Below are positions 279 to 27,610 of a stretch of DNA of 62,072 bases, piece after piece. The notes under the pieces were generated by a model. It saw only the letters and a program-made list of their open reading frames with translations. It ran no database searches and was not told the DNA's origin. The stretch comes from Methanoregula sp. (GTDB lineage Archaea; Halobacteriota; Methanomicrobia; Methanomicrobiales; Methanospirillaceae), in the NCBI GenBank assembly GCA_030694985.1, contig JAUYTV010000047.1, positions 1-62,072 on the forward strand, in the 5' to 3' direction. Every line of letters begins with the position of its first letter. The stretch's first letter is position 1. The position numbers were made by a program, and so were the translations under genes.

Positions 279-1316
279 TTAAATGAGTTTAAAGATGGGG
301 TGGCTTTCTGATTTGCACTCGATCCCGAGCTGACGGGTCGCCTCAAGGACAGTGATGTCCGTGTAGGCCTGTGCGGTGATCATTGCTTCGACGTTCTCGA
401 TAGGTCCGTACATAATCAGGTCTGCACCGAGCGTGCTTGCAATCATGTTGCAGCCGATATCAGGAGCTGACCATGCTGCCTGCTTTATGCCTTCCATACC
501 GCCGAGGTAGTGGTGGGACATCTGCTTTAAGAGAACATCCTTACCTTCGTATCCTGCTGCGAGTACTGAGGGGGTCTTGCTCGTTCCCTTCCAGCGCTTG
601 AGCCAGGTCCAGGAAACGGTCATGTTGTGGTATGCACCACCGGTCGGGTATCCGTGGATGGCCTTGCATGCAAGGATCTCACGGTATGAGCCGCCGCTGC
701 CGAGACCGAGCGGGGTTGCTGCAGTGTCGAGAATCGGGCGCTTGATACCGCAGTACTCTGCGATCTCGAGCATACCCTTGGTCTGTCCTGCAACGCCACC
801 GGAGGTGAGCACTTTCTCCCTGCCGGTAACTGACGGATCTGCCGGGTTGAATGCAAGCACAATGGCTGCATCCACATCACTGTTCTTGAGTGCTTCGATG
901 CTCTCTGGCAGGATCGAACCGTTGATCGAGTTGTAGATCGCACGGTTTGCAAGGCCGACATCGGTTACGTACTTGCATGCATGGGCAAGTGCCGTTGGAA
1001 CTGATGAGTCCATTAAGAACGCGGTCTTGTTGTCAATTGAGTCGAACCAGCTGAAGTAGCTCTCGAATGCCTCGCCGTACTCCGCGATGATCTGGATGAA
1101 GTGCGGGATACCGGTCAGGTCTGAGAGGACCTGACAGCGGTTCCAGAGGGCTTCTGCCTTTGCTTTGTCGATAGTTCCTTTGTGGTCGTCAAGCACACAC
1201 TCGTGCTTGTTGTAGAAGATTGATGCACCCAATACAGTAGGGTACTCGCCGGGCTGTCCACCGATCTTGGTACCGTTGAAGTCCCAGACACTCTGTTCTT
1301 TTTCAAATCTGAACAT
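279..1316 (-). CDS. mtrH: Methyl-H4MPT:CoM methyltransferase subunit H
   Basis: MtrH transfers the methyl group from methyl-tetrahydromethanopterin to the cob(I)amide carried by MtrA, the first half-reaction of the sodium-pumping Mtr complex in the penultimate step of methanogenesis. It is a soluble TIM-barrel-like protein. The product is 345 residues, slightly longer than the usual ~310-320. The start MFRFEKEQ resembles family N-termini, and Gly-rich loops (ATPLGLGSGGSYRE, TSGGVAGQTKG) typical of MtrH are present. It is the last gene of the operon, 17 bp after the MtrA-MtrG fusion, and is followed by an oligo-T tract. Assignment is secure from sequence and context. Confidence 0.96.
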   Translation of the reverse strand: MFRFEKEQSVWDFNGTKIGGQPGEYPTVLGASIFYNKHECVLDDHKGTIDKAKAEALWNRCQVLSDLTGIPHFIQIIAEYGEAFESYFSWFDSIDNKTAFLMDSSVPTALAHACKYVTDVGLANRAIYNSINGSILPESIEALKNSDVDAAIVLAFNPADPSVTGREKVLTSGGVAGQTKGMLEIAEYCGIKRPILDTAATPLGLGSGGSYREILACKAIHGYPTGGAYHNMTVSWTWLKRWKGTSKTPSVLAAGYEGKDVLLKQMSHHYLGGMEGIKQAAWSAPDIGCNMIASTLGADLIMYGPIENVEAMITAQAYTDITVLEATRQLGIECKSESHPIFKLI

Positions 1317-1333: not shown

Positions 1334-2071
1334 TTACACCATTGTCATTAATTTCTGGAACAGGAACAGCATCATCACAAATACGATAACGCCTGCCATG
1401 AGGCCGTAGAGAATACCGATATCCCGTCCAATCTTTCTTCCAACACGCTGCGCAACCTCTGCATCCACGAACTCGATCTGCTTCTCGATCTTGTCGAGTC
1501 GCTTCTCAATTTCGAGGAACTGGGGGTTTGCAGACGCAGAGCCAACTTCAGCGCCACCGGCAGCTTCCTTGACTTCGACGACAAAGGCTTCACCAGAAAA
1601 CGCACCCGGGTCCCGGGCTTTGAGTTCGTTGATCTTGGCCTTGATTGCGCCTAAGTCTTCGCTTTCCATGATGTTGACGATCTCCGTCTGGTCCTGGAAG
1701 CGCTTGATAGCTGCATCGTTGAGGTTCTCGATGAAGGGAATCGCACCCTCGGCACCGACAACCCTGCCGTCTTTGACTCCGCCTTTATGGAGTGCGCCTA
1801 ATGTCTGGCCTGATAAGTGGCCCTTGACTTCAGTACCACAGAACAGTATGAACCGGATATTGGGGTTGGCAATGACGTTTGCGATAACCTTCTCAAGACC
1901 GAGGTTTTCAGTCTTACAAGAACCGCACAATGCTGCTCCCGCATCACAGACACCCTGTTCATCGAGGTGTGAACCCATAGTGACTACAGCCACCGGGCTG
2001 TTTGCGTCTCCTGAATGGTAGTCACCCTTTACTAGCGGCCATCCACTTGCTGGTGATTTCTTGTCTGCCAT
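1334..2071 (-). CDS. mtrA2/mtrG: MtrA-MtrG fusion (second corrinoid domain on MtrG)
   Basis: This 245-residue protein has two parts. Residues 1 to about 172 nearly duplicate the cobalamin-binding domain of the neighbouring MtrA, including the [11 protein letters not shown] loop whose His85 corresponds to the cobalt-ligating His84 of studied MtrA. One substitution is obvious (Ala to Ser in the DPGAFxGEAF stretch). Residues from about 178 are not the MtrA tail; they match MtrG ([35 protein letters not shown]) and end in one membrane helix. No separate mtrG exists, and the gene occupies the canonical mtrG slot between mtrF and mtrH. The MtrG half probably keeps its structural role. Whether the extra corrinoid domain binds B12 and works is inference. 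The split point and full-length open frame are directly visible. Confidence 0.9.
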
Positions 2072-2072
2072 G

Positions 2073-2279
2073 TTATTTCACCACCAGTAATGCCGGTAAA
2101 ATGATCAGGATCAATGCAAGGAGTAATCCTGCAACAAATCCGACCAGGCCGGTTGCAGTGACTGCCGAGTCAATCTTGTTGGTCCTGACAAGGATCTGTG
2201 ACTTATAGCGGATGTTCTCCACCATATTATCGATCGCCACCATCCTGACAGGTCCTGTAGATTTTGCTTCTTCTGCCAT
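2073..2279 (-). CDS. mtrF: Methyl-H4MPT:CoM methyltransferase subunit F
   Basis: A small 68-residue Mtr subunit with a soluble N-terminal segment ([18 protein letters not shown], resembling other MtrF proteins) and one C-terminal membrane helix (about residues 43-65). It lies between mtrA and the mtrA-mtrG fusion, matching the canonical E-D-C-B-A-F-G-H order. A GTG nine bases upstream (2288) is in frame, but the ATG at 2279 follows a GGTGA ribosome-binding site overlapping the mtrA stop, so it is preferred. MtrF is usually described as resembling the N-terminal part of MtrA, and its precise role in the complex is unresolved. Confidence 0.88.
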
Positions 2280-2284
2280 CTCTT

Positions 2285-3007
2285 TCACCTCATCATCAGG
2301 ATTCCGACCAGTGCGAACGAGACGATCAGACCGATCATCAGACCTTCGATCTTACCTGCATAAACCCCGGCGGCAAACTTGTCCCGGTACCCGATGTCTG
2401 TAACCATCTTTTCGATGATTTTCATACGGGCGGTAATAAGTGCCATTTCACCGGAGAGCGGGCGTACTTCGCCACCTGACTCTTCAGCGCCACCGGCAGC
2501 TTCCTTGACTTCGACAACAAAGGCTTCACCAGCAAACGCACCCGGGTCACGGGCTTTGAGTTCGTTGATTTTGGCCTTGATTGCGCCTAAGTCTTCGCTT
2601 TCCATGATGTTGACGATCTCCGTCTGGTCCTGGAAGCGCTTGATAGCTGCATCGTTTAAGTTCTCAATGAAGGGAATCGCACCCTCAGCACCGACAACCC
2701 TGCCGTCTTTGACCCCACCTTTGTGGAGTGCGCCTAAGGTCTGGCCTGATAAGTGGCCCTTGACTTCAGTACCGCAGAACAGTATGAACCGGATATTGGG
2801 GTTGGCAATGACGTTTGCGATAACCTTCTCAAGACCGAGATTTTCAGTCTTACAAGAACCGCACAATGCCGCGCCTGCATCACAAACACCCTGTTCATCG
2901 AGGTGTGAACCCATGGTGACAACAGCCACCGGGCTGTTTGCGTCTCCTGAATGGTAGTCACCCTTTACGAGCGGCCATCCACTTGCTGGTGATTTCTTGT
3001 CTGCCAT
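2285..3007 (-). CDS. mtrA: Methyl-H4MPT:CoM methyltransferase corrinoid subunit A
   Basis: MtrA carries the 5-hydroxybenzimidazolyl-cobamide prosthetic group that receives methyl from MtrH and passes it to coenzyme M on MtrE; demethylation is coupled to Na+ export. The 240-residue product has the soluble corrinoid domain (residues 1-172, His85 in the [11 protein letters not shown] loop), a linker, and one C-terminal membrane helix (about 212-238), the normal MtrA architecture. Codons 1 to about 172 are nearly identical at DNA level to the second copy in the fusion gene. That suggests recent duplication or ongoing gene conversion. It follows mtrB by one base and is followed closely by mtrF. 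Confidence 0.96.
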
Positions 3008-3008
3008 A

Positions 3009-3302
3009 TCAGCCCACCTTGATCAACTGGAATGCAATGATCCCAGCAATGAATAATCCAACCGCAAGCCCGTACCAGAATGAGGTGATACTGCCACCAA
3101 TCGCAAGTCCTTTTTCCCTGTTGGGGAACGAGGCAAGCATGTTGCCTTCGCCTGCGAGCATGTTGACCAGATCATCGCTTGTTGCTTCGAGCACAGCGAC
3201 TTTCTCCAGAATCGGGGAGAATGATTCGCCAGCTGTCGTGATGATACCAACCATCGGGTCTGCAACAAGTCCGAACTCCGGAAGCACCTGAATGTATGCC
3301 AT
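3009..3302 (-). CDS. mtrB: Methyl-H4MPT:CoM methyltransferase subunit B
   Basis: A 97-residue Mtr subunit beginning [16 protein letters not shown], which matches the MtrB N-terminus, with one C-terminal membrane helix (about residues 73-95). In the complex MtrB is a small single-helix subunit associated with the MtrA/G stalk. The gene directly abuts the mtrC stop (3303) and precedes mtrA by one base, so translation is probably coupled. No anomalies are seen. Confidence 0.93.
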
Positions 3303-4157
3303 TTAGTGTCCCTCCGTATCAGGAATCGGCTTTGAATCAAGCCATGCTGCTGCATCGCGCTTTGACATCGCAAAGAACTGGCCGTATGTGTATAACCATC
3401 CGATAATTGCGACAATCAGCGAGATGAGTGCTGCACCAGCGCTGATAAAGGCAAAGGACATGACTGCTGCGACAATCATGCTCAAAAATCCACACTCTGC
3501 GGTAAGCATGAGCATACGGTCCTGTTTCCAGCCGGGTCCCAGGCACGCGTTGAACGGGTGCTGGATTGCAATTGCTCCAAGCAGGAATGCGACAGCGATA
3601 AGTCCGCCACCAAGGAATGAATTTGCATAGCTGGTGATGGGGAATCCAAGGAACGTGGCTGTTGATGTTGTCAGGCCGGTAAAGGTGAATCCACCGGTGA
3701 TCATTGCTGCAAATCCCATAACGGTAAGTGCACCAACCACTGCCATTTCGGTCAGTGCCTGGATCATGGCCGGGATCTTCATGTTCAGGATATTGTTCGA
3801 AACGTACCCGAGGATCAAACCAATGACTGCTGCGAGAACGAGGGCAACAATCGGAGCTAGCATACCATATTTGGTTGCGAGCAGCATCGCGATTGTACCC
3901 GAACCGAATGCGATCATACCTGCAGAGGGAACGCCGGTACCGATACCGTAGCTGCACAGCACCTTGATGGTGTGGCTGCCCCAGATCAGTGCAGCAACTA
4001 CTGCAAGTCCTCCGAAGAATGAGAACATCTGAGTGTTGGTGAACGCATTGAGGTACGTCAGATAGATGCACACGAGTGTGCTTACGAGGCCCGCAATCAT
4101 TATTTTATCGTGCGGGACGCCGCCTGCAATTACTTCAATTTTTACTGACATCTTCAC
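3303..4157 (-). CDS. mtrC: Methyl-H4MPT:CoM methyltransferase subunit C
   Basis: A 284-residue polytopic membrane protein with about seven to eight predicted helices. With MtrD and MtrE it forms the membrane core that couples methyl transfer to sodium translocation. The start MKMSVKIEV is preceded by a purine-rich ribosome-binding site just downstream of the mtrD stop (3-bp gap). Length and hydrophobicity are normal for MtrC. It is the third gene of the mtr operon and nothing unusual is seen. Confidence 0.94.
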   Translation of the reverse strand: MKMSVKIEVIAGGVPHDKIMIAGLVSTLVCIYLTYLNAFTNTQMFSFFGGLAVVAALIWGSHTIKVLCSYGIGTGVPSAGMIAFGSGTIAMLLATKYGMLAPIVALVLAAVIGLILGYVSNNILNMKIPAMIQALTEMAVVGALTVMGFAAMITGGFTFTGLTTSTATFLGFPITSYANSFLGGGLIAVAFLLGAIAIQHPFNACLGPGWKQDRMLMLTAECGFLSMIVAAVMSFAFISAGAALISLIVAIIGWLYTYGQFFAMSKRDAAAWLDSKPIPDTEGH

Positions 4158-4160
4158 ACC

Positions 4161-4994
4161 TCATATTGCAACGATCAGGATCGCTACGAATCCGCAGAGT
4201 GCCGAAGCAACAGCGGATGCAACGATTGCCCGTGGCCAGCGCTTGAACTTCGGGTCGTGGGGACCTTCAATCGTTCCGGTGATGTTGTATGCGGTCAGCA
4301 CTGCATTCACGAGGAACATAGCGACAGCGAACATACCGGCAACTGATACCGCAACAGGCAAAACCTGTGCATGGGTTGCACTCATCAGGGTTGGGAATGT
4401 TGCCTTGTAGAGATCCAGAAGGGCCAGGTAAATGAGTGTACCGCCTGCACCGGCAAGGATACCGCCAATTACGCCACCAACGAAGGAGACGAACGGAAGA
4501 CCGTGACCTTCAGTACCCTGGGATTTGAATTCCGCCTGCGAATCTCCGGTGATGGGGTCATGTAAGACTTTACCAGACGCGGCCGGGATACCCATACCAT
4601 AGACGTAGACAAAGTTCACCATCATACAGGTGATTGCCATCATCAGACCGCCACCAATACCTCCGGTGATCGTTGCAACGGTCGTACCCAGTGGTGCAGC
4701 CCATGCTCCACCGAAGAGTCCGGCAAGACCTGCACCAGCGGCAAGCATTGCGACACCTGTTGCAATACCCGGTGCCTGTCCCATTGCTGCGGGAGCACCG
4801 CCGACCGGTACGAAGTGAGTGCCGAATCCAATCAGGACACCGCCAACGATGACACCGATCAGGGCCGTGAGACCGAGGTTCGGTGAGACATAATAGCAGG
4901 CTCCGAGAATGATTATCAGGAGAACAACACCGACTGCCATTGCCGTCGGGTTCATTGCGCCGCCAGCCTGTGGTTTTGCTGCAACTGCGCTCAT
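4161..4994 (-). CDS. mtrD: Methyl-H4MPT:CoM methyltransferase subunit D
   Basis: A 277-residue membrane subunit with Gly/Ala-rich helices and the conserved loop MGIPAASGKVLHDPITGD around residues 134-151, characteristic of MtrD. It forms part of the Na+-translocating module with MtrC and MtrE. The ATG overlaps the mtrE stop by four bases (ATGA), indicating translational coupling. Family length and operon position are as expected. Confidence 0.95.
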   Translation of the reverse strand: MSAVAAKPQAGGAMNPTAMAVGVVLLIIILGACYYVSPNLGLTALIGVIVGGVLIGFGTHFVPVGGAPAAMGQAPGIATGVAMLAAGAGLAGLFGGAWAAPLGTTVATITGGIGGGLMMAITCMMVNFVYVYGMGIPAASGKVLHDPITGDSQAEFKSQGTEGHGLPFVSFVGGVIGGILAGAGGTLIYLALLDLYKATFPTLMSATHAQVLPVAVSVAGMFAVAMFLVNAVLTAYNITGTIEGPHDPKFKRWPRAIVASAVASALCGFVAILIVAI

Positions 4995-5890
4995 GCGTCT
5001 GCCTCCTTAGCTGCTGTGTAGGGTCCGTAGTTCTTGCGTGCCCAGACCTCGATGTACCGGTCGATGACGGTGAAGACGAGGATCATAAGAACGCCTACTG
5101 CGATTGCACCCCAGCCTGCGTAGATCCTCTCAAAGAGAATGGTACGCCAGATTTCTAAGAAAACAATCAGACCAAAACAGATACCGGATGCTGAACCCCC
5201 AATCTTGTGGGTAAAAAATCCGTTGTCAATCGAGTTGCGCTCGCCGGCTTCGGCATAGCGGACGATGTTACCTGATGCAGAGATCGGCACACCTGCGCCA
5301 AACTTCTGGTTCTGGTACTGACGTTCCTTACCATAGTACGGGTTGCCCGTCGCAGATCCTGCTGCACCGAGTGCAATACCCCAGATCAGTGCGAGCAGTG
5401 GCAGCGGGAACGGGTGTCCCAGAGCGCCATTGATCAACTGACAGAGTGCTACAGTACAGAAAATTGCGATGAACGCATGTGCCATGGTGACCGTTGTCAT
5501 GGACTTAATAATATCCACATAAACGGGCTGACCGAACTTGGCAAGACTTGCTGTTCTGCCAAGGTACGCTGTCGTTGCGTAAACGCCCTGAACAAAGACT
5601 GCAAGAATACAGCCGAGGACGATTGCAAGGATCGCGTTGACTTGCATAGCCATAAAAGCCCATGCCAGGCCTGCACCTAGTGCACACCAGAGACCGTATG
5701 CCGGGGGTTCACCAGCGACCGCCTTGTTGAAGATGCGGTGCAGGAATCCCATCTGCGGTGCGAGCTGAACCTGTGAGTTCGGGTCACCTTGTGATCCGAT
5801 GTTGGATTCAGTATCTTCCGCAGAACCGGCTACAGTGGCAAGAGCTCCTGTCAATGCAGTAATTCCAATGCCAAATACAATATTTTCCAT
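4991..5890 (-). CDS. mtrE: Methyl-H4MPT:CoM methyltransferase subunit E
   Basis: The first gene of the mtr operon. Its 299-residue product has about six to seven membrane helices and the polar loop ATGNPYYGKERQYQNQKFG seen in MtrE. In structural models MtrE is the membrane subunit closest to the coenzyme M methyl-transfer site and is implicated in Na+ passage. The start (MENIVFGIG) follows a GGAGG-type ribosome-binding site. A 320-bp AT-rich stretch upstream should hold the operon promoter. Confidence 0.95.
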   Translation of the reverse strand: MENIVFGIGITALTGALATVAGSAEDTESNIGSQGDPNSQVQLAPQMGFLHRIFNKAVAGEPPAYGLWCALGAGLAWAFMAMQVNAILAIVLGCILAVFVQGVYATTAYLGRTASLAKFGQPVYVDIIKSMTTVTMAHAFIAIFCTVALCQLINGALGHPFPLPLLALIWGIALGAAGSATGNPYYGKERQYQNQKFGAGVPISASGNIVRYAEAGERNSIDNGFFTHKIGGSASGICFGLIVFLEIWRTILFERIYAGWGAIAVGVLMILVFTVIDRYIEVWARKNYGPYTAAKEADA

Positions 5891-7750: not shown

Positions 7751-8160
7751 TCAGATTTTTGCAAATGTTGCATCGATCCACCTTATGATCTCATCCCGCA
7801 CCTTCCGGAATCCGGCCCGGACTTCCTCATCGGACCCGGTAAATGCCGAAGGGTCCGGGAAACTCTGGTAGATTACCTCCTGTGCTCCCGGAAAGAACGG
7901 GCAGGCTTTTTGTGCAGAATCGCAGACCGTAACGACCGTTTCAATCCCTTTCCCGAAGAGATCATCGATGAGTTTCGAACGGTGACCCGAGATGTCGATC
8001 CCGATCTCCTTCATAACTTCGATTGCTCTCGGGTGTACCCGGGTTACTTCGGTTCCGCCACTGAATACTTCGTACCGGTCGCCATACTTTGCATTCATGT
8101 ACCCTTCCGCCATCTGGGAGCGTGCGGAGTTGTGGGTGCAGATAAATAAGATCTTCTTTT

Positions 8161-8164
<4 letters not shown>
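7751..8164 (-). CDS. arsC: Arsenate reductase, thioredoxin-coupled LMW-PTP type
   Basis: A 137-residue ArsC of the low-molecular-weight phosphatase fold, reducing As(V) to As(III). The P-loop [13 protein letters not shown] (Cys9-x5-Arg) is the nucleophile site, and two further cysteines in [15 protein letters not shown] form the disulfide relay of thioredoxin-dependent enzymes. It overlaps the acr3 stop by four bases and is the last gene of the operon. A mini-thioredoxin and ferredoxin:thioredoxin reductase encoded upstream in the same operon are plausible electron donors; that link is inference. Confidence 0.93.
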
Positions 8165-9240
<1,076 letters not shown>

Positions 9241-23486: not shown

Positions 23487-23879
23487 GTGAAGTGCATTCT
23501 TAACACCGGCCGCACGGTTCCGCAGGGGGCTTATGTCGAGCACAAGGGATCAGATGCCTATCGTAGCGTGGCATCGGCTGGTTTCCTGAATCCCGTAGAC
23601 ATGATGATGTTGGGAATCGAGGATGGGGACCGCATCCGGGTCACTACGCCTGCCGGCCATATCGTTCTTACTGCCCGTCCCGCTGAGGGAGTGGCACGCG
23701 ATGAAATCTTTGTTGCGATCGGCCCGTATGCCAACCACGTCATCTCTTCTGAGACCCATGGCACCGGGATGCCGGACTTTAAGAGCCAGTCCGCAGATGT
23801 TGAGCCCACCAAAGAACCGTTAAAGAGTGTTGGGGAACTCATGGAAGCTCTCGGGGGGTTACACTATGATCGAACATGA
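23487..23879 (+). CDS. fwdD: Formylmethanofuran dehydrogenase subunit D
   Basis: A 130-residue molybdopterin dinucleotide-binding domain protein, with MLGIEDGDRIRVTTPAGHIV and FVAIGPYANHVI motifs. In Fwd/Fmd it forms the pterin-cofactor site together with FwdB. It starts GTG immediately after the polyferredoxin stop and overlaps fwdB. Whether the metal is tungsten or molybdenum cannot be told. Confidence 0.88.
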   Translation: MKCILNTGRTVPQGAYVEHKGSDAYRSVASAGFLNPVDMMMLGIEDGDRIRVTTPAGHIVLTARPAEGVARDEIFVAIGPYANHVISSETHGTGMPDFKSQSADVEPTKEPLKSVGELMEALGGLHYDRT

Positions 23880-25155
23880 TGTGGTCTGCCCCTTCTGCGG
23901 CTGCCTTTGCGATGATCTCGAACTCGAGACTGAAGAGGGAAAGATTGTAAAAGTGCAAAACGGCTGCGCTCTTGCAGAGTCAACGTTCATGAACGATGTC
24001 CGGCTCCCGGCCCCGATACGGCGCACGGAAACCGGCTGGGAAGATATCTCCTATACCGAGGCTATAAAAGAAACAGCAGAGATCTTACAGGGTGCAGACC
24101 GGCCGCTTCTCTATGGGTGGAGCAGCACGCATGTCGAGGCACAGAGCATTGGCGTGCATATTGCCGAACTCATTGGAGCTGTTATAGACAATACAAGCAC
24201 CGTCTGCCACGGCCCGTCCATCCTTGCCATCCAGGAAGTTGGCCATCCCGGCTGTACGCTCGGGCAGGTAAAGAACCGGGCGGATGTGATCATCTACTGG
24301 GGATGCAACCCGGTTGAGGCACATCCCCGCCACATGAGCCGGTATACCACGTATGCTACCGGTTTCTTTGTCCCAAATGCCCAGCTGGAGCGCACGGTGA
24401 TCGTTGTCGATACCCGCAGGACAGACACTGCCGGTATCGCTGACGAATTCGTGCAGATCGAACACGGTGGGGATTACGCAGTGCTCTCCGCCCTTCGGGC
24501 AATTGTCCGTGGAAAAACATCAGTCATCCCCGCCAAAATCGCCGGTGTTTCTAAAGAGCAGCTGATCCGGATCGTTGAGATCTGCAAAACCGCAAAGTTC
24601 GGGGCGATCTTCTTTGGACTGGGTCTTACTATGAGCCGGGGAAAATACAAGAACATAAGAAATGCAATCGAGCTCACTGATGAACTCAACCGGCACACGA
24701 AATTTGTGATCTCCCCGCTGCGGGGGCATGGGAATGTCTATGGCTCCAATGAAGTCTTCACGTGGATGACCGGCTATCCCTTTGCCGTTGATTTTGCCCG
24801 GGGCATTGCGTTTTACAATCCCGGGGAGACGACTGCTGTTGACATTTTGCGCAGGGGCGAATGCGACGCCGCTCTCATCGTGGCAAGTGACCCGGGGGCA
24901 AACTTCCCCCGGGATGCTGCAGCCCACCTCGCAAAGATCCCGACCGTGATTATCGATCCGCACGTGAATGCTACTACTGCGTTATCCCGCATCCATATCC
25001 CCTGCACTGCTGCGGGTATCGATGCAGCAGGGACTGCGTACCGGATGGATGGGGTACCCATACGTTTGAAAAAAGTGATTGACCGCGGGTACATGGATGA
25101 TGCGGAGATCTTAAAAAAGATCTATGATCACCTGAACGGGGGGAAGGGGCCATGA
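23866..25155 (+). CDS. fwdB: Formylmethanofuran dehydrogenase subunit B (catalytic)
   Basis: A 429-residue catalytic subunit that reduces CO2 to formate with ferredoxin electrons. N-terminal CPFCGCLCDDLE plus a later Cys (QNGCALAE) bind a 4Fe-4S cluster. Cys in NTSTVCHGPS (about 116) is the metal ligand that is selenocysteine in some homologues; here it is plain cysteine. The start ATG at 23866 lies inside fwdD; a longer upstream start is unlikely. Confidence 0.94.
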   Translation: MIEHDVVCPFCGCLCDDLELETEEGKIVKVQNGCALAESTFMNDVRLPAPIRRTETGWEDISYTEAIKETAEILQGADRPLLYGWSSTHVEAQSIGVHIAELIGAVIDNTSTVCHGPSILAIQEVGHPGCTLGQVKNRADVIIYWGCNPVEAHPRHMSRYTTYATGFFVPNAQLERTVIVVDTRRTDTAGIADEFVQIEHGGDYAVLSALRAIVRGKTSVIPAKIAGVSKEQLIRIVEICKTAKFGAIFFGLGLTMSRGKYKNIRNAIELTDELNRHTKFVISPLRGHGNVYGSNEVFTWMTGYPFAVDFARGIAFYNPGETTAVDILRRGECDAALIVASDPGANFPRDAAAHLAKIPTVIIDPHVNATTALSRIHIPCTAAGIDAAGTAYRMDGVPIRLKKVIDRGYMDDAEILKKIYDHLNGGKGP

Positions 25156-26852
25156 CCGAGTTATGGGTAAAAAATGCCTGCGTCATTGACCCGATCCGGG
25201 GCATCAACGGCGAGATTATGGATATCGCGATCCGTGACGGGAGGATCGTGGAGTCAGTCTCGGACCGGGCAGATGTGATCGATGCCCAGCGTTGTCTCAC
25301 GCTGCCCGGCGGCATCGACTCGCACACCCATGTCAGCGGTACCAAGGTTAACTTCGGGCGGTACATGAGCCCGGAGGACATGCGGGCGGGACGGACAAAA
25401 CGCAAAGGGAAGATGCATGTCACGAGCGGCTACTATGTCCCGACAACGTTTGGCAACAGCTACCGGTACAGTGCCATGGGATACACGACCCTGCTCGAAG
25501 GGGCGATGGCTCCATTAGAAGCCCGCCATACCCACGAGGAGTTCACAGCAACTCCCCACCAGGACATGATGGCAAACACCCTCTTTGACGGCAACTGGGC
25601 AGTCATGGATGCAGTGCGGGAAAAGGACATTCGGAAGACGGCAGCAGTAGTTGCATGGACGTTAAAAGCAGCACGGGGATACGGTATCAAACTGACCAAC
25701 CCCGGCGGCACCGAAGCGTGGGGATTTGGCGAGGACTTGACCGGCATCCATGAGATGGTTCCGCATTTTGCAGTAACGCCCGCTGAGATCATCACTACGA
25801 TGATCCGGGCAAACGAACTGCTCAAACTTCCTCATTCGGTTCACCTGCACTGTAACAACTTGGGAAAGCCCGGCAACTACCAGACAACACTCGAAACATT
25901 CGACATTGTGCCTGACTTAAATCCGGCACGCCAGACCCTGTACGCCACCCATGTGCAGTTCCATGCGTACGGCGGCGGGACGTGGAAGAACATCAGTTCC
26001 AAGGCAGAAGAGATCACCCGTTCGGTCAACATTAAACCCCAGATTGTCATGGACATGGGCCAGATCATGTTTGGCCGGACCATGACCATGACTGCTGACG
26101 GGCCTATGGAGTTTAACCTCCACTGCCTCCACCACAACAAGTGGAGCAACCACGATGTGGAGCTGGAGACCGGATCCGGTATCATCCCGGTAACGTACTC
26201 GAAGAAGAGTGCCGTGAACTGTATCATGTGGGCGATCGGTCTTGAACTGGCACTTCTCACGAAAAATCCGTACCAGTGCCTGCTTGAGACCGACAACCCC
26301 AATGGTGCACCGTTTGTGAAATATCCTGAGATCATCGGTCTCCTGATGAGCAAACGCTATAGGGATGAAGAATGCGCCACGCTGGCAACCGGTGTTGAGC
26401 AGAGAACCTCGCTCTTTGCGCTTGAACGGGAGTTGGACTGGCACGATATCGCCGTCATGACCCGGGCTGGTCAGGCAAAGGCATTAGGCATCGTTAACCA
26501 GGGTAAAGGCCATCTCGGGATCGGTGCGGAAGCCGACATTGCCATCTACCCGATCCGGACCGATTCCGTTGACCCGGCCCGGGAATACCGGAAAGTGGTT
26601 GAAGGGTTCCAGAAGACCCGGTACACGATCAAGCGGGGACGCGTGGTTTCGCGGGAGGGGGAGATCATTGTTGACGGTGCAAATGCCACCTTCTGGGTCG
26701 ATGCGAAGGTGCCTGAGGATCTCAAAATGGAAAATGATCCGGAGTTCATTAAGAGATTTGAGCAGTTCTACACGGTGAGGATGAGCAATTATCCGGTGCA
26801 GGACGTGTACCTCCCCCGCGGGCGGCGCATAGAAACAGAGGTATTTACATGA
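25152..26852 (+). CDS. fwdA: Formylmethanofuran dehydrogenase subunit A (amidohydrolase)
   Basis: A 566-residue amidohydrolase-fold subunit that condenses formate, delivered through an internal tunnel, with methanofuran. Binuclear metal ligands include GGIDSHTHVSG (about 54-64) and HSVHLHCNNLGKPG (about 227-240). The downstream HVQFHAYG and ETDNPNGAPF motifs are typical. It overlaps fwdB and fwdC by four bases. Length is normal. Confidence 0.95.
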   Translation: MTELWVKNACVIDPIRGINGEIMDIAIRDGRIVESVSDRADVIDAQRCLTLPGGIDSHTHVSGTKVNFGRYMSPEDMRAGRTKRKGKMHVTSGYYVPTTFGNSYRYSAMGYTTLLEGAMAPLEARHTHEEFTATPHQDMMANTLFDGNWAVMDAVREKDIRKTAAVVAWTLKAARGYGIKLTNPGGTEAWGFGEDLTGIHEMVPHFAVTPAEIITTMIRANELLKLPHSVHLHCNNLGKPGNYQTTLETFDIVPDLNPARQTLYATHVQFHAYGGGTWKNISSKAEEITRSVNIKPQIVMDMGQIMFGRTMTMTADGPMEFNLHCLHHNKWSNHDVELETGSGIIPVTYSKKSAVNCIMWAIGLELALLTKNPYQCLLETDNPNGAPFVKYPEIIGLLMSKRYRDEECATLATGVEQRTSLFALERELDWHDIAVMTRAGQAKALGIVNQGKGHLGIGAEADIAIYPIRTDSVDPAREYRKVVEGFQKTRYTIKRGRVVSREGEIIVDGANATFWVDAKVPEDLKMENDPEFIKRFEQFYTVRMSNYPVQDVYLPRGRRIETEVFT

Positions 26853-27610
26853 GAGTGATCCTCGAGAGCAAAGTACGGGCAAAGCCGAATCTCCCGATCG
26901 AAGCAGAGGCAATCATCCCCCGCAATTTCTTAAAAGGTACTGACCTTATCGTCTATGAGGGCAACAAGGAGCGTACGCTATCAGAGATGTTCTGGATTTT
27001 TGTCGAAGGAACCGCCGTCTCTCCCGAAAACATCGAAGTGATACTCAAAGGCGATACTTCGCGGATCAAGCGTGTCGGCGAGTACATGGATACCGGCAGT
27101 ATCGTGATCGAAGGAGACATCGGCATGCACTGCGGGAACTTCATGAGCGGCGGGACGATCGAGATCCGCGGCAATGCCGATTCCTGGCTTGGCAGGGAGA
27201 TGCGGGGCGGGACGATCCTCTGCCGGGGCAATGCCAGTCATTACTGTGCAACCGGATACCGCGGCGAGAAGAAAGGGATGCAGGGTGGCAAGGTAGAGGT
27301 GTTTGGCAATACCGGGGATTTCTGCGCTGAATACCTTGCCGGCGGAACCGTGCACATCCATGGCAGTGCCGGAGATTTCCCCGGTGTGGAGATGCGGGGC
27401 GGCGAATTAATCATTGAAGGCGACGCCACCCGGCCCTGCGGGAATATGAAGAGCGGCTCGTGCGTAATTTTAGGTACGGTGCACGATATGCTTCCCACCT
27501 TTGAAAAGAGCGGGCGCAGAGTGCTGCCTGAGTGGAAGATTACGGCGGATGTGTACAAGGGCGATGTGGCAAACCGGGGGAAAGGCACCCTCTGCGTGCG
27601 GAGTGAATAA
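26849..27610 (+). CDS. fwdC: Formylmethanofuran dehydrogenase subunit C
   Basis: A 253-residue right-handed beta-helix protein with repeated Gly-Gly-x-Ile units (for example FMSGGTIEIRGNADSWLG, MRGGTILCRGNA, LAGGTVHIHGSAGDF), as in the GltB C-terminal domain. It scaffolds the Fwd complex. It is the last gene of the continuous eha-fwd run; fwdE, fwdF and fwdG homologues are not in the window. Confidence 0.95.
   Translation: MRVILESKVRAKPNLPIEAEAIIPRNFLKGTDLIVYEGNKERTLSEMFWIFVEGTAVSPENIEVILKGDTSRIKRVGEYMDTGSIVIEGDIGMHCGNFMSGGTIEIRGNADSWLGREMRGGTILCRGNASHYCATGYRGEKKGMQGGKVEVFGNTGDFCAEYLAGGTVHIHGSAGDFPGVEMRGGELIIEGDATRPCGNMKSGSCVILGTVHDMLPTFEKSGRRVLPEWKITADVYKGDVANRGKGTLCVRSE

Follow-up and report, generated by a model that had tools for sequence, protein, structure and literature searches.

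The gene at the mtrG position of the mtr operon in a Methanoregula sp. appeared to encode more than MtrG. A first-pass annotation of a 62,072-nucleotide stretch of its DNA (the window) had read this gene as an MtrA corrinoid domain joined to MtrG and had proposed that each Mtr protomer would hold two corrinoid domains. This raises the questions whether the fusion is genuine, whether it is particular to this genome, and what a second MtrA domain might do in the Na+-pumping Mtr complex.

The fusion gene and its place in the mtr operon

The operon in the window has the order mtrE-D-C-B-A-F-[A]G-H, in which the fusion gene lies between mtrF and mtrH and a canonical mtrA-1 lies upstream (Table 1). 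The frame of the fusion gene starts with ATG and encodes 245 amino acids without internal stop codons. The Pfam MtrA domain (PF04208) was matched by residues 4-173 with 275 bits (E 2e-82), covering positions 1-171 of the 173 profile positions and thus representing a complete N-terminal MtrA domain. In the same frame, residues 184-235 matched Pfam MtrG (PF04210; 80 bits, E 1e-22). This match and the alignments with the chains 9qtq_S and 8q3v_G identified the C-terminal part as MtrG, which replaces the MtrA anchor. The protein passed the cut-offs of both the NCBIfam mtrA and the NCBIfam mtrG models. The architecture assigned by the first-pass annotation was therefore confirmed with exactly the same gene boundaries.

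Table 1. Coordinates of the mtr genes and of the domains of the fusion gene in the window
Feature	Position	Strand	Evidence
mtrH, methyl-H4MPT methyltransferase	279..1316	(-)	PF02007
mtrA-2b / mtrAG fusion gene (245 aa), encoding an MtrA corrinoid domain followed by the stalk and membrane helix of MtrG	1334..2071	(-)	Pfam, NCBIfam
MtrG part of the fusion, profile positions 11-62; sole MtrG of the genome	1367..1522	(-)	PF04210; aligned with 9qtq_S, 8q3v_G
MtrA corrinoid domain of the fusion, with His85	1553..2062	(-)	PF04208; PDB 5laa, 5l8x, 9qtq
mtrF, between mtrA-1 and the fusion	2073..2288	(-)	PF09472, 82.8 bits
mtrA-1, canonical MtrA; has a membrane helix of its own at the C-terminus	2285..3007	(-)	PF04208; TIGR01111, 337 bits
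mtrB	3009..3302	(-)	PF05440
mtrC	3303..4157	(-)	PF04211
mtrD	4161..4994	(-)	PF04207
mtrE, Na+ site subunit	4991..5890	(-)	PF04206

His85 of the MtrA domain is presumably the cobalt ligand, i.e. the lower ligand of the cobamide. The His85 loop of the fusion (11 residues) was intact, as had been noted before, and aligned with the MtrA chains of the PDB entries 9qtq, 8q3v, 5laa and 5l8x. Canonical MtrA (mtrA-1 and these four structures) shares the corrinoid fold and the histidine ligand with the fused domain but ends in its own anchor helix, whereas the fusion ends in MtrG. The stalk and membrane helix of MtrG from the cryo-EM complexes of M. marburgensis (8q3v) and M. mazei (9qtq) aligned with the fusion with 52.8 and 63.5 bits, respectively; unlike the fusion, however, these MtrG proteins are 72-86 amino acids long, carry no MtrA domain and have the N-terminal segment present. 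The earlier statement that MtrA and MtrG are separate in studied complexes is true of these two, which both come from outside the order Methanomicrobiales.

The genome assembly comprises 2.49 Mb in 58 contigs at 96% completeness; MtrA was matched twice in it and MtrG once, each time within the mtr operon. The PF04210 profile search of the whole assembly revealed no free-standing mtrG, and the only MtrG is the fused one, as the first-pass annotation had claimed.

Two further observations concern other parts of the window. The region 7751-9240 (-) looks like an arsenic resistance pair: it encodes a protein of the low-molecular-weight phosphatase family, by family arsenate-reductase-like, beside a transporter of the SBF family that appears to be of ACR3 type. 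At 23827-27610 (+), three adjacent genes resemble the formylmethanofuran dehydrogenase B-A-C set: the product of one matches molybdopterin oxidoreductase weakly, and the other two encode an Amidohydro_3 and a GXGXG protein.

Distribution of the fusion and its earlier description

Genomes with MtrG made up 179 of the 232 surveyed in the order Methanomicrobiales, and 116 frames with fused MtrA and MtrG were read, some loci covering the same gene twice. A stand-alone MtrG with a closed 5' end was not found among the loci read in the order (three were cut by a contig end), nor did the survey of the order reveal any loss of the second MtrA domain. Every readable mtrG of the order thus proved to be fused to an N-terminal MtrA domain. 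The gene order E-D-C-B-A-F-(A)G-H was found in every complete locus save a few broken or collapsed assemblies. The nearest named loci to the window belong to Methanoregula and other Methanomicrobiales genomes (81-95% identical). Outside the order but within the same phylum, the MtrG matches listed (about 110) all lay in frames of 73-143 amino acids and were separate. Among the matches listed, these started at MtrG profile positions 1-4, compared with positions 5-11 in Methanomicrobiales, which indicates that the start of MtrG was replaced in the fusion.

Such a fusion could in principle result from assembly or sequencing, if a collapsed mtrA repeat had been joined to mtrG. In related genomes, short-read assemblies are indeed interrupted at this near-identical repeat of 525 bp. 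Among the short MtrG frames of the survey (80-170 amino acids), 17 of the 20 that were fetched ran to a contig end inside the repeat, and four short-frame loci (G135, G210, G167, G164) had a broken reading frame; in G167 mtrA-1 is broken too, G164 has neither mtrF nor the anchor of mtrA-1, and one base of G210 is undetermined. These four broken frames were taken for assembly error. A few further loci (L035, L041, L046, L106) look collapsed, with the MtrA-G fusion directly after mtrB and without the mtrA-1 anchor and mtrF, most likely by assembly collapse of the repeat rather than by recombination. In the contig of the window, however, both copies are resolved by 21 distinguishing nucleotides, the same fused frame occurs in single-contig genomes from several genera, and the fusion was already present in a survey of complete genomes in 2015 (PMC4632066). 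An artefact is refuted by these independent complete genomes, and the probability left to it is negligible.

The novelty implied by the first-pass annotation did not hold. In the complete Methanomicrobiales genomes known at the time, eight in number, Wang et al. (2015; PMC4632066) had found between mtrF and mtrH an additional mtrA joined to mtrG, which they termed mtrA-2b and whose MtrA domain is homogenised with mtrA-1 by long-lasting gene conversion. The fusion, its fixed presence in the order and the parallel in Methanococcales were thus all published in 2015, and the same gene was found again in a genome-wide study in 2018 (PMC6053082). The gene of the window agrees with mtrA-2b in domain order, in placement relative to mtrF and mtrH, in the order of archaea and in homogenisation with mtrA-1; no difference in architecture was found, and the window adds one more member. 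Methanococcales and Methanocella arvoryzae have an analogous MtrA-F fusion, mtrA-2a, which likewise places a second MtrA domain, homogenised with mtrA-1, on a single-helix stalk subunit, but its partner is MtrF instead of MtrG and its origin is independent (PMC4632066). It is virtually certain that the gene is mtrA-2b, encoding an MtrA-MtrG subunit that is standard in Methanomicrobiales. The gene architecture and the family are already known and are ordinary for the order.

Gene conversion and selection on the second MtrA domain

The first 175 codons (525 nt) of mtrA-1 and of the fusion differ by 21 nucleotides and by one amino acid (A159S), so that the two MtrA domains of the window are 99.4% identical at the amino acid level. 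The similarity begins at the ATG and ends abruptly at about nucleotide 526-527; the two genes are unrelated in the 40 nucleotides that precede the ATG and again beyond nucleotide 526. Sharp limits of this kind are expected of a block homogenised through gene conversion between the two copies. Across the order (46 non-identical genome pairs of paralogues), the MtrA copies of the same genome had a median amino acid identity of 98.8% and were sister pairs in 38 of 46 genomes.

This similarity raises the possibility of functional redundancy, in which the second domain would be a gene-conversion duplicate of mtrA-1 with at most a dosage effect and no distinct role. The high identity within genomes, the prevalence of sister pairs and the homogenised tract from the ATG to codon 175 in the window are all in line with redundancy. 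The differences between the paralogues are, however, mostly synonymous, with pooled pN 0.012, pS 0.107 and pN/pS 0.11 over the 46 genomes. His85 is a histidine in all 46 second copies and in all 45 readable first copies, the loop 79-86 is invariant in both copies of the 46 pairs, and no corrinoid-site residue varies in the second copy. Most second copies could have stayed alike through conversion alone; the two effects are separated in Methanomicrobium and, less so, in a few Methanoculleus-type genomes.

Methanomicrobium is the informative case because conversion can mimic selection. In its two genomes (L073, L076), the only genus in which purifying selection was assessed independently of conversion, the two MtrA domains are 83% identical with dS 0.84-0.91, and the copies cluster by copy and not by genome. 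Conversion has, judging from these sequences, ceased there long ago. The fused-copy orthologues nevertheless have a dN/dS of 0.058 and 98% identity between the species and keep the corrinoid residues, including His85, whereas the mtrA-1 orthologues have a dN/dS of 0.076 and 96% identity. The fused copy is thus at least as conserved as mtrA-1 after conversion ceased, which points to purifying selection on the fused domain in its own right. Moreover, no domain loss was found across the order, and both mtrA paralogues were reported to be essential in Methanococcales (Sarmiento 2013, as cited in PMC4632066). Redundancy is rather unlikely on this evidence. On account of the invariant His85, the pN/pS of 0.11 and the selection in Methanomicrobium, the second MtrA domain seems to be retained in its own right. 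What these data add to the known picture is the invariance of His85 in 46 of 46 second copies, the pN/pS of 0.11 and the selection in Methanomicrobium.

A different explanation was considered from the [KR]DPGA motif of MtrA, which we take to be a connectase recognition site and which is conserved in nearly all copies of the order; one mtrA-1 copy has DPGN at residues 154-157, compared with DPGA in the other aligned copies. PF09894 (the MJ0548 family), which is presumably connectase, was found in 60 of 159 genomes of the order and is absent from most of the genus Methanoregula; the profile search gave no match in the genome of the window. A connectase that swaps domains between the MtrA-1 and MtrG anchors was rejected as a general explanation, since PF09894 is patchy and the fusion is order-wide.

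A putative second corrinoid shuttle in Mtr

The AlphaFold2 model of the fusion comprised a globular domain, a low-confidence linker at about residues 170-182 and one helix (183-244), and the modelled MtrA domain matched 5laa and 5l8x at about 2 A. In the cryo-EM structure 8q3v, the N-termini of the stalk helices of MtrA, MtrB, MtrF and MtrG lie at the cytoplasmic end. As the N-termini of MtrA and MtrG are both cytoplasmic, a domain borne by MtrG is on the correct side of the membrane. MtrA in the cryo-EM complexes has a flexible linker on which its domain moves back and forth between MtrH and MtrCDE. The M. mazei protomer (9qtq) contains two MtrH, with active sites facing opposite ways, and one MtrA domain, and its authors considered it sterically unlikely that MtrA reaches the distal MtrH.

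The fusion could instead provide a structural or docking element, which may hold the MtrH dimer or stabilise the stalk and would not carry methyl groups. In M. mazei the N-terminal segment of MtrG contributes to a small beta-sheet at the docking site of MtrH. This segment is replaced in the fusion; the first 5-10 MtrG residues are missing or substituted, so that MtrH docking may differ. The corrinoid-site residues, including His85, are however invariant in the second copy, which would be needless for a purely structural job, and such a role is quite improbable.

The reading that we prefer, at a probability of about 0.65 as a whole, is that the gene is mtrA-2b and contributes a second corrinoid shuttle to the Na+-pumping Mtr. 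The MtrG helix of the fusion would take its usual place in the membrane stalk, and a disordered linker, about 13-15 residues long, would tether the fused MtrA domain in the cytoplasm, as with the MtrA-1 domain. The fused domain most likely binds cobamide with His85 as the lower ligand and would take up methyl groups at MtrH and pass them to coenzyme M at MtrCDE. From its conserved residues, the fused domain is probably, though by no means surely, such a working second shuttle. Each protomer would then hold one MtrA-1 and one MtrA-G, i.e. two tethered corrinoid shuttles, which would lift the ratio of shuttles to MtrH active sites from 1:2 to 2:2; the second shuttle may serve the other MtrH or may raise shuttle availability.

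The interpretation given by the first-pass annotation stands in so far as the MtrA-MtrG reading with two corrinoid domains per protomer fits all sequence evidence and selection appears to keep the second domain; its implied novelty fell to the earlier description. The literature searched contained no protein, corrinoid count or structure of Mtr from Methanomicrobiales and no experiment on the raised methyl-transfer capacity or changed Na+ coupling that the annotation had suggested, and the proteomic literature searched contained no peptide evidence for the fused protein in this order.

A more specific proposal can be made tentatively, at a little short of even odds, from the sequences compared here: Mtr of this order may have two independently selected, cobamide-loaded MtrA domains per protomer on different stalk helices, one per MtrH active site, with kinetics or Na+ coupling unlike those of the solved single-shuttle complexes. 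The lineages for which Mtr structures have been solved have a single MtrA domain in each protomer, whereas Methanomicrobiales and, through the other fusion, Methanococcales appear to have two.
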